Assembly (NCBI GenBank): GCA_947259505.1
Contig: CAMYLT010000002.1
Location: 186,001-250,000, forward strand
Length of the DNA: 64,000 nucleotides
Reading direction: 5' to 3'
Source: an uncultured Porticoccus sp.
Lineage (GTDB): Bacteria > Pseudomonadota > Gammaproteobacteria > Pseudomonadales > Porticoccaceae
Below are positions 2-17,260 of the stretch, one piece after another. How positions within the stretch are numbered: position 1 is the stretch's first letter; every line of letters begins with the position of its first letter. Under the pieces are notes generated by a model. It made no database searches and was not told the DNA's origin. It worked only from the letters and a program-made list of their open reading frames with translations. The translations under genes were made by a program, and so were the position numbers.

Positions 2-28
2 AGCCCAGCAGGCGGAGCCAAATACTAA
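2..28 (+). CDS. Possible 3' end of an upstream gene
   Basis: One frame from the window edge reads SPAGGAKY and then TAA, directly against a plus-strand terminator hairpin. This fits the tail of a plus-strand gene lying outside the window. Eight residues are too few to identify it, and other frames also stop nearby, so this is a positional inference only. Confidence 0.2.
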   Translation, partial: SPAGGAKY

Positions 29-11380: not shown

Positions 11381-11909
11381 GATGCTCCTCCATGGCACTG
11401 GCCAATTTCATCAATGCGGGAAACAACATCATCCAGATCAACGCCAACAGCAATGCCGCCTCTATTTCCGTGACGCCAAAGCTCACCGCGCCCAGCCGAC
11501 CGGCAGCAAGATAAGACGCGGCACCAGCTAACGATCCCACCAGAGCAGACAGCAGATATCGCCCCTTAAACCAGTGCAATCCCTGCCGCAAGGTGGCCGC
11601 AAACGATAGCCATAACAACGCCAGCCAAACCGGTGGCCATGCATGATCATGAGCAAACACAAAGATCCCTGTAAGGGTTAGTGAGGCGTCCACAAGCATC
11701 CCCAACAACGTACAACTGACCAACACGAACAGCTCAACTTTGGGGGTGCTGTGAAACAACAGATGAACCGCAATCAACACAGCGACAAAAGGCAATGCCT
11801 GGTTGCCATACAGAACCGACAGCCACCAAGCCAGTTGAAAACCAATCAGGTTGATCCACCACGCTTGAGACCAACCTGAAAAAATCAGATGTGTTCCGTT
11901 TTTGTTCAT
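11367..11909 (-). CDS. DUF2878 family inner-membrane protein
   Basis: The 180-residue protein has about five to six membrane segments and the family stretches WINLIGFQLAWWLSV and LWLSFAATLRQGLHWF. DUF2878 proteins have no assigned function and are often found with DUF3833, chalcone-isomerase-like and cyclopropane-synthase genes. The track start is 39 codons too early; ATG at 11909 lies just downstream of an ECF-type promoter (TGATCT-N18-TAATA) and starts before the first membrane segment. It is the first gene of a four-gene operon. Confidence 0.75.
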   Translation of the reverse strand: MNKNGTHLIFSGWSQAWWINLIGFQLAWWLSVLYGNQALPFVAVLIAVHLLFHSTPKVELFVLVSCTLLGMLVDASLTLTGIFVFAHDHAWPPVWLALLWLSFAATLRQGLHWFKGRYLLSALVGSLAGAASYLAAGRLGAVSFGVTEIEAALLLALIWMMLFPALMKLASAMEEHRVSA

Positions 11910-11915
11910 GGACAG

Positions 11916-11944
11916 TATTACGAACATGAGTGAAGGGCAGATCA
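11916..11944 (-). promoter_or_regulatory. Predicted ChrR-controlled ECF sigma promoter for the DUF2878 operon
   Basis: On the minus strand the sequence is TGATCT, 18 nt, TAATA, with CG just before TAATA. It has the same -35, spacing and -10 as the promoter in front of the amine-oxidase operon at 17202. This matches the known TGATCC-N18-TAAGA type used by RpoE of the RpoE-ChrR pair in Rhodobacter. The start codon at 11909 is 6 nt beyond the -10, so the transcript would have almost no leader. Confidence 0.65.
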
Positions 11945-15867: not shown

Positions 15868-16515
15868 CTAAAAACCAAACAGCGGTTGCGCCAGTTTGCC
15901 CAGCAATGTGGTGTAACGTAGCGGAAACTCTGTGGCGATCAGACAGATACAGTCGTGCTCACTGTCCACCAACGGCTGGTGGGTGATTCGGTCATCCAGG
16001 TCAGCCACATCGCCGGGGCAAAAACGGCCTACCTCATCAATAAAAGAACCGCGCAACAGTTGCGTCAGCTCACTGCCGCGATGACTGTGGGGAAGCGCCG
16101 CTTTGCCAGGAGCAACCCGGAGTAGTCTTGTCAGACCTTTGCCCTGAGCGGGCAGGTCGTAAACCCATACACCTGCTACGAGACGCTTCCAGGCTACTTC
16201 ATCCAGAGAATCGCCGATATAGCTGGCCAGCGGCCCGGGCACCTCGCTATCTGCCGCATGAGCAGGTGCGGCCGCAGTTGCTTGCGGACGCACGTCCAGT
16301 CGCTCAAGGACTTGCAACAATGCATTATCGCTGACGGGGGATAAGCTATTGTTTTCCAGCAATGCACCGCCAATTGCTTCCAGTTGCCGGGCACGATCAC
16401 GACAATACTCACACTGGGACACATGACAAGCCACAACCAGAGCTGTGCCCTGCCCCAAAGCGCCCGCCACATAGCTGAACAGCGTGGCTTCATCTAAGTG
16501 GTGCTTAATATTCAT
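15868..16515 (-). CDS. chrR: Zinc anti-sigma factor ChrR
   Basis: ChrR binds and holds its ECF sigma factor and releases it under singlet-oxygen stress. From ATG at 16515 the N-terminal zinc site is His6, His31, Cys35 and Cys38 (CHVSQCEYC), the same numbering as Rhodobacter sphaeroides ChrR. The C-terminal cupin domain carries His143, His145, Glu149 (LPHSHRGSE) and His179, each two residues beyond the Rhodobacter zinc site (141, 143, 147, 177). Both zinc centres are therefore complete. The start has a perfect GGAGGTGA Shine-Dalgarno inside the sigma gene and overlaps it by 11 nt, so the two are translated in tandem. Confidence 0.95.
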   Translation of the reverse strand: MNIKHHLDEATLFSYVAGALGQGTALVVACHVSQCEYCRDRARQLEAIGGALLENNSLSPVSDNALLQVLERLDVRPQATAAAPAHAADSEVPGPLASYIGDSLDEVAWKRLVAGVWVYDLPAQGKGLTRLLRVAPGKAALPHSHRGSELTQLLRGSFIDEVGRFCPGDVADLDDRITHQPLVDSEHDCICLIATEFPLRYTTLLGKLAQPLFGF

Positions 16516-17125
16516 AATCACCTCCGAGGACCAGCTTCAGCTTTTCGGCCGCAAGCCTAATTCGCGATTTGACGCTACCAAGGGGTATTGATAAACGTTC
16601 GGCAATTTCGGAATGGGTCCGCCCTTCATAAAATGACATGTAAATAACCTGAGCCTGATTATCGGGTAGTTGATGAATGGCTAATGCCACACGGTCTGAA
16701 ACGATCGACTGCTCTGCTTCTGACTCCTGAAGAGGCTCTCCCTCGTCACGGTGCCAGCTCTCCAGATCGTACTCTGGATATTTTTGCTTGCGCATCCAGT
16801 CAATGCTCTGATTCCTCGCCAAGGTATAAATCCAGGTACTGGCAGCAGCCTTATCCCGGTTGTACAAATGGGCCTTGCGCCACAAAGACAACATGGTTTC
16901 CTGGGTCAGCTCCTCCGCGGTTGCTTCAGTGAGTCCCAGGCGAATAATGTAGCCTTTGATCCGCGGGGCAAAATGTCGAAACAGTTGAATAAACAACTGT
17001 CGGTCCCGTGACTGACCCAGTTCCGCCAGCATTGCAGACCAATCGTTCCCCTGTGCCTCAGGGGTAGCTTCGACCTTCATGGCAACCACGTTATCCACGT
17101 TATCTCCCGGCGGTTTATCCTGCAT
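16505..17125 (-). CDS. rpoE: ECF sigma factor paired with ChrR
   Basis: An ECF sigma-70 factor of the ChrR-linked (ECF11) kind. Region 2 reads AEELTQETMLSLWRKAHLYN...STWIYTLARNQSIDWMRK; region 4 reads HSEIAERLSIPLGSVKSRIRLAAEKL. From ATG at 17125, which has AAGGAGA just upstream, it is 206 residues; ATG at 17080 would give 191. The track start adds 82 codons that cover the promoter and can be dismissed. Its own promoter matches the consensus exactly, so it is autoregulated. The symbol follows Rhodobacter usage; it is not the envelope-stress RpoE of E. coli. Confidence 0.93.
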   Translation of the reverse strand: MQDKPPGDNVDNVVAMKVEATPEAQGNDWSAMLAELGQSRDRQLFIQLFRHFAPRIKGYIIRLGLTEATAEELTQETMLSLWRKAHLYNRDKAAASTWIYTLARNQSIDWMRKQKYPEYDLESWHRDEGEPLQESEAEQSIVSDRVALAIHQLPDNQAQVIYMSFYEGRTHSEIAERLSIPLGSVKSRIRLAAEKLKLVLGGDYEY

Positions 17126-17131
17126 GTCTCT

Positions 17132-17160
17132 CCTTACGAATGGCTGCTCGGTATGGATCA
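17132..17160 (-). promoter_or_regulatory. Autoregulatory ECF promoter of the sigma-chrR-phrB operon
   Basis: The minus strand reads TGATCC, exactly 18 nt, TAAGG, one base from the Rhodobacter RpoE consensus TGATCC-N18-TAAGA. The -10 overlaps the presumed ribosome binding site (TAAGGAGAGAC-ATG), so transcription would start at or next to the ATG at 17125. Either the message is leaderless, or translation from this transcript begins at the internal ATG at 17080. Confidence 0.75.
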
Positions 17161-17201: not shown

Positions 17202-17230
17202 TGATCTCTCTGGAAGTGTTGTGCGTAATA
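17202..17230 (+). promoter_or_regulatory. Predicted ECF promoter of the amine oxidase-DUF1365-cfa operon
   Basis: TGATCT, 18 nt, TAATA with CG before the -10, the same form as the promoter at 11916-11944. It stands divergently 41 nt from the sigma promoter. The amine-oxidase start at 17261 would have a leader of about 25 nt with AGGA before the ATG. Confidence 0.68.
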
Positions 17231-17260
17231 TATATCACTATGTATAGACAGGATGCTCCA

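Follow-up and report, generated by a model that had tools for sequence, protein, structure and literature searches.

Candidate dual translation starts at the autoregulatory promoter of an ECF11 sigma factor gene

An ECF11 sigma factor gene in the 64,000-nucleotide stretch of an uncultured Porticoccus sp. genome analysed in this study (hereafter the window) appears to have two in-frame translation starts, an ATG at 17125 and a GTG nine codons further in at 17098, both lying behind a promoter of the type recognized by the sigma factor itself. We consider it probable that the autoregulated mRNA starts no more than about four bases from ATG 17125 and is translated mainly from the GTG into a 197-amino acid protein, with some leaderless 206-amino acid product, and that mRNA from further upstream yields the 206-amino acid form. 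The analysis revises where translation of this widespread light-stress regulator starts: the conserved start is the GTG, and the annotated ATG probably sits at the 5′ end of the induced mRNA. The features of the locus, in window coordinates, are:

16505–17125, minus strand: ECF11 sigma factor gene (rpoE-like; Pfam Sigma70_r2/r4), long form from 17125, short form from 17098
15868–16521, minus strand: ChrR-type anti-sigma factor gene (PF12973, ChrR cupin), overlapping the sigma stop
17155–17160, minus strand: −35 element TGATCC of the autoregulated ECF11 promoter, by consensus match
17135–17138, minus strand: −10 element CGTA, 16-nt spacer, by match to the consensus TGATCC-N16-CGTA (PMC5507510)
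17130–17135, minus strand: SD1, AAGGAG, putative ribosome site for ATG 17125, located after the −10 and before the predicted transcription start
17125–17129, minus strand: predicted range for the transcription start of the autoregulated transcript, from mapped ECF promoters
17123–17125, minus strand: ATG start of the long form (206 amino acids), at which the autoregulated mRNA would begin, from ortholog spacing and coding periodicity
17104–17108, minus strand: SD2, GGGAG, 5 nt before GTG 17098, the second Shine–Dalgarno peak in 84 orthologs
17096–17098, minus strand: GTG start of the short form (197 amino acids), from start-codon conservation in 84 orthologs
17202–17227, plus strand: divergent promoter of the same type (TGATCT-N16-CGTA) for an FAD oxidoreductase gene, by consensus match

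Judged by its gene content, the locus is an ECF11 RpoE–ChrR sigma operon with its singlet-oxygen regulon in a Porticoccus-like gammaproteobacterium. The best solved relative of the sigma factor is RpoE (2q1z, E value 1.6e-40), Pfam finds regions 2 and 4 only, which is the ECF architecture, and the ChrR translation carries the zinc-ligand pattern H-x3-C-x2-C as ACHVSQCEYC. Downstream of the sigma gene come the ChrR cupin anti-sigma gene and then a photolyase gene; a divergent FAD oxidoreductase, DUF1365 and a cyclopropane-fatty-acid-type (CFA-like) synthase lie opposite, and a nearby operon with its own ECF11 site encodes DUF2878, a chalcone-isomerase-like protein, DUF3833 and an SDR. The neighbourhood thus holds the ECF11 core regulon members photolyase, CFA-like synthase, DUF1365, FAD oxidase, DUF2878, DUF3833 and SDR. 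The nearest relatives of the sigma locus are found in Porticoccus, Neptuniibacter, Amphritea, Neptunomonas and Marinobacterium.

Two of these neighbouring promoters also place a start codon close to the −10 element. On the plus strand (17224–17258), an ATG of the FAD oxidoreductase gene at 17240 is just 16 nt from where its CGTA begins, and a second ATG at 17258, preceded by AGGA, is the likelier start on the regulated transcript. At the second ECF11 promoter (11909–11944, minus strand), the DUF2878 gene has ATG 11909 at CGT+13 and lacks a Shine–Dalgarno site; we rejected it as a second leaderless case, as two Porticoccus relatives have ATT there and a Shine–Dalgarno-led TTG further in, and the arrangement is not conserved.

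Read along the minus strand, TGATCC (17160–17155) is followed by ATACCGAGCAGCCATTCG (18 nt), TAAGG (17136–17132), AGAGAC and ATG (17125), exactly the letters that the first-pass annotation had read as a TGATCC-N18-TAAGG promoter ending 6 nt before the ATG. It had also placed the −10 inside AAGGAG; the overlap is real, but the −10 that is recognized is CGTA, which shares a single base with AAGGAG, and the consequence drawn from the overlap is unchanged. Experiments on this sigma class gave the consensus TGATCC-N16-CGTA (PMC5507510), the Shewanella ECF11 promoter reads TGATCC...CGTATT (PMC4336711), and autoregulation is known in the ECF11 family (PMC5507510, PMC4336711). Exact TGATCY-N15..17-CGTA sites occur four times in the window against 0.42 expected, ECF11 sites genome-wide number 10 against 2 for the reversed pattern, and all 84 distinct orthologs have the promoter ahead of the sigma gene (spacer 15–17); because of these three counts, we do not regard it as a chance match. 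The −10 reads CGTA in all 84 orthologs, of which the search pattern demanded CGT and left the fourth base free, and the −35 is TGATCC in 64, TGATCT in 19 and TGACCT in 1. By these sequence criteria, the promoter before the sigma gene is an autoregulatory ECF11 promoter.

Apart from the one shared base, AAGGAG occupies the stretch from the −10 to the predicted transcription start. The mapped start of ecfF lies 6 bp past the −10 (PMC3420878) and that of RpoE9 9 nt past CGTC (PMC3616915); the Shewanella transcription start is an A (PMC4336711). Starts 6–9 nt past the −10 would correspond to about 17129–17126 here, and transcription should begin at 17125–17129, which is 0–4 nt before ATG 17125, so that autoregulated transcripts would lose AAGGAG. 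By analogy with the mapped promoters, we regard this loss as highly likely, in agreement with the first-pass annotation, which had proposed that transcripts from the sigma factor's own promoter lack the ribosome site and are either leaderless or translated from an internal start; both modes are plausible and evolutionarily conserved. Unlike strictly leaderless genes, this clade does have the Shine–Dalgarno site AAGGAG in the DNA before the ATG.

As to which internal start is used, the earlier suggestion of ATG 17080 found no support: at that offset, the orthologs show no Shine–Dalgarno signal (mean +0.2 kcal/mol) and the codon is not conserved as NTG. The conserved internal start is instead GTG 17098 (197 amino acids) with GGGAG at 17108–17104. 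Across the 84 orthologs, the codon aligned with it is GTG in 71, TTG in 5 and ATG in 1; among the other seven, five close Porticoccus relatives have GCG and then TTG one codon later, one has ACG and one TCG. An NTG at this exact codon is thus missing in three small Porticoccus lineages, made up of these five relatives and of L191 and L193, which have none. Wherever the aligned codon encodes valine, it is GTG (71 of 71), against 35% GTG for valine elsewhere in these genes. A tree built from the remainder of the gene places no third-base change at this valine, whereas 24 other four-fold conserved sites have a median of 27.5 such changes and never fewer than 17. A codon that shifts almost only among GTG, TTG and ATG behaves as a start codon, and we are confident on this comparative ground that GTG 17098 is a real start.

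The anti-Shine–Dalgarno energy profile of the 84 orthologs has two separate peaks, one for the ATG (mean −6.3 kcal/mol) and one for the GTG (mean −6.9 kcal/mol). Synonymous shuffles of the SD2 region average −5.5 against the observed −6.9 kcal/mol; because the Gly-Asp/Glu peptide encoded there itself favours Shine–Dalgarno-like letters, the strength of SD2 alone is weak evidence, and the strong evidence for the GTG start is the codon itself.

ATG 17125 appears from its conservation to be used as a start too. Of the 84 orthologs, 68 carry an in-frame ATG or GTG at CGT+11..16, and the offset is almost invariably 13 or 14. Where an ATG lies 27 nt before the GTG (42 orthologs), the changes inferred for codons 2–9 number 16 at the first codon position, 17 at the second and 58 at the third (chi-square about 38 against equal rates); codons 2–6, which lie before SD2, show 13, 14 and 32 in the same set, and the periodicity is weaker in the 26 orthologs with an ATG at −30 (33, 25 and 45). 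The extension is therefore under coding constraint in this group. The long form begins MQDKPPGDNVDNVVAMK, and its nine additional residues form an N-terminal tail ahead of residue 21, where similarity to RpoE (2q1z) begins; the two forms may differ in function.

SD1 behaves as a partner of this ATG. Its mean energy is −7.1 kcal/mol in the 68 orthologs with a start and −3.5 in the 16 without. The corresponding position averages −0.6 both in a set of 77 distant ECF11 sigma promoters and in 53 promoters from elsewhere in the regulon, most of which come from the same genomes. The position of SD1 tracks that of a displaced ATG (rho 0.40, p 6e-4); the p-values of these SD1/ATG comparisons are optimistic owing to species relatedness. 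Being specific to the sigma gene and moving with the ATG, SD1 most likely serves translation from the ATG rather than the promoter. We rejected the idea that the AGG after CGTA is a promoter discriminator, since it is missing in the same 77 and 53 promoters and moves with the ATG.

Most orthologs in the group of the window encode Pro-Pro-Gly at residues 5–7 of the long form (17125–17096). Pro-Pro-Gly slows ribosomes without EF-P, and it might affect use of the long-form start.

The GTG and a Shine–Dalgarno site, usually GGAG or GGAGG, are retained in most orthologs that have no usable ATG. These carry ATT (L190, L192 and L250), AAG (L169) or stops (L214) in its place, lack it altogether (L232 and L240) or have it out of frame (L242, L245, L248 and L249). 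In the last four, all from genus g115, an ATG does stand where transcription is predicted to start, but in another frame than the sigma gene, and GGAGGC-gat-GTG is perfect; this ATG might open a 5′-terminal overlapping upstream reading frame. In L191, only the ATG start is present and the −35 is changed (TGACCT), and in L193 the ATG, SD1 and the aligned NTG codon are all lost; each of these two lineages seems to have shed one arm of the design.

AAGGAG can work only in transcripts that start further upstream; the fact that it is conserved implies that these are made, and is the sole hint of them. The second upstream promoter postulated by the first-pass annotation was not detectable: the 84 upstream regions, scanned for sigma-70 promoters, scored no higher than their shuffled versions (mean z −0.23), and the candidate TTGGAT-N17-TAGTCT in the window scores at chance level. 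Read-through from an upstream gene gained no support as a source: where the flanks, often too short to judge by, show a long upstream reading frame (about 460–480 codons), that frame is divergent. RNA folding gives the same access to SD2 and the GTG in short and extended transcripts, and RNA structure was rejected as the switch on that ground.

In the mechanism we favour, the autoregulated transcript would begin at 17125–17129 and lack AAGGAG, and ribosomes on it would initiate mainly at GTG 17098, guided by GGGAG behind a leader of about 27–31 nt, to give the 197-amino acid protein. Some ribosomes may load on the 5′-terminal AUG in leaderless fashion and make the 206-amino acid form, which a transcript from further upstream, keeping AAGGAG, would also yield from the ATG. 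The evidence for two in-frame starts is comparative, and on it we think it reasonably likely that both forms are made. That the choice of promoter switches the isoform ratio is a more tentative proposal, somewhat below even chances, and a light-dependent switch between the forms is something we infer. The fullest version would have the switch built into the promoter position, with basal upstream transcripts giving the long form through the hidden ribosome site and light-freed sigma giving the shorter GTG form from its own transcript. Most members of two bacterial families would retain this design, which would descend from an older, leaderless one that other classes still show; we regard this fullest version as speculative and rather doubtful. 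Should the gene make both forms, their ratio would reveal which promoter is at work, a layer of feedback undescribed for ECF11 in the literature searched.

Three other accounts compete with the mechanism proposed above. Under plain misannotation, as in Bradyrhizobium ecfF, GTG 17098 would be the sole working start, the ATG a relic or chance, and the product one 197-amino acid protein from an ordinary short-leader mRNA. The GTG is indeed the more conserved start, several lineages have lost the ATG or have it out of frame with the GTG intact, and the ecfF precedent exists (PMC3420878); a relic or chance ATG is hard to square with the 16/17/58 periodicity of codons 2–9, with a conserved SD1 tied to the ATG and with an in-frame ATG at CGT+12..14 in 61 of 82 orthologs, and we consider this account improbable, though the strongest of the three. 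Less probable still is that the autoregulated mRNA is read from the 5′-terminal AUG alone and that the GTG is merely a conserved valine codon. In its favour, ECF11 sigma genes of other classes often have an ATG at CGT+12/13 with no Shine–Dalgarno site, and the spacing of the ATG here matches theirs. A mere valine would not be expected to be GTG in every one of 71 cases, nor to be exchanged almost only for TTG or ATG, and the GTG outlives loss of the ATG.

The third account, an ordinary leadered gene with its functional transcription start upstream, AAGGAG–ATG as sole start and the promoter-like sequence idle, can point to a textbook ribosome site. It would leave unexplained why the promoter is kept at fixed spacing in every ortholog, it conflicts with known autoregulation in the family (PMC5507510, PMC4336711), and the 84 upstream regions hold no promoter signal to replace the idle one; we give it very little credence. 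The two-start mechanism remains our preferred reading.

ECF11 loci outside this group were drawn from named genomes of Rhizobium, Devosia and Variovorax and from a sample spanning the phylum. Among sigma promoters of other classes, 38 of 53 have an in-frame ATG 12–14 nt from the start of CGTA, where other offsets have a mean of 1.2 ATGs, and these genes show no Shine–Dalgarno signal before the ATG (mean −0.9). The simplest reading is that their mRNAs are leaderless and start at that ATG, and we predict leaderless autoregulated mRNAs for ECF11 sigma genes of other classes (candidate loci with the ATG 12–13 nt from the first base of CGTA, in Rhizobium, Devosia, Variovorax and other genera: L068, L069, L070, L071, L076, L066 and L074; phylum-wide: L264–L333). 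ATG 17125 stands at this same spacing, and these genes independently support the transcription start predicted here. The spacing is one which only 2 of 79 other gammaproteobacterial ECF11 genes share, most of them starting 24–60 nt downstream.

A leaderless autoregulated sigma gene, promoter-selected isoforms and an ECF transcription start overlapping an annotated ATG are each already known separately. The RpoE–ChrR (ECF11) systems of R. sphaeroides, P. syringae and S. oneidensis share the sigma/anti-sigma pair, the promoter consensus and the core regulon, and we found no dual start in the literature on them; nor did the ECF11 literature searched contain an in-frame 5′ AUG whose Shine–Dalgarno site is hidden in the autoregulated promoter, combined with a dedicated conserved GTG. 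In Bradyrhizobium japonicum ecfF (PMC3420878), the mapped ECF start likewise coincides in part with the annotated ATG, and a start codon further downstream was preferred by the authors, but that gene belongs to ECF16 and was treated as a misannotation, with no evidence for both starts. Certain E. coli mRNAs have a 5′-terminal AUG able to bind 70S ribosomes, followed by a Shine–Dalgarno-led start that binds 30S (PMC4965119); their 5′ AUG is out of frame, whereas that of the window sigma gene is in frame and would make an isoform. M. tuberculosis sigE, with its P1, P2 and P3 promoters (PMC10027907), has a sigma-dependent autoregulatory start (P2) at the main start codon, which makes that mRNA leaderless, and internal non-canonical starts that give shorter isoforms. 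It belongs to a different ECF group, and a separate internal promoter, P3 (SigH), makes its short forms, whereas the short-form start in the window has its own Shine–Dalgarno site on the autoregulated transcript. Streptomyces coelicolor SigR/SigR′ (PMC5472188) also has promoter-chosen in-frame starts, one autoregulated promoter and a link to oxidative stress, with the opposite polarity: its autoregulatory promoter lies upstream and gives the longer, unstable form (a 58-residue extension), whereas that of the window sigma gene lies downstream and should favour the form shorter by 9 residues.
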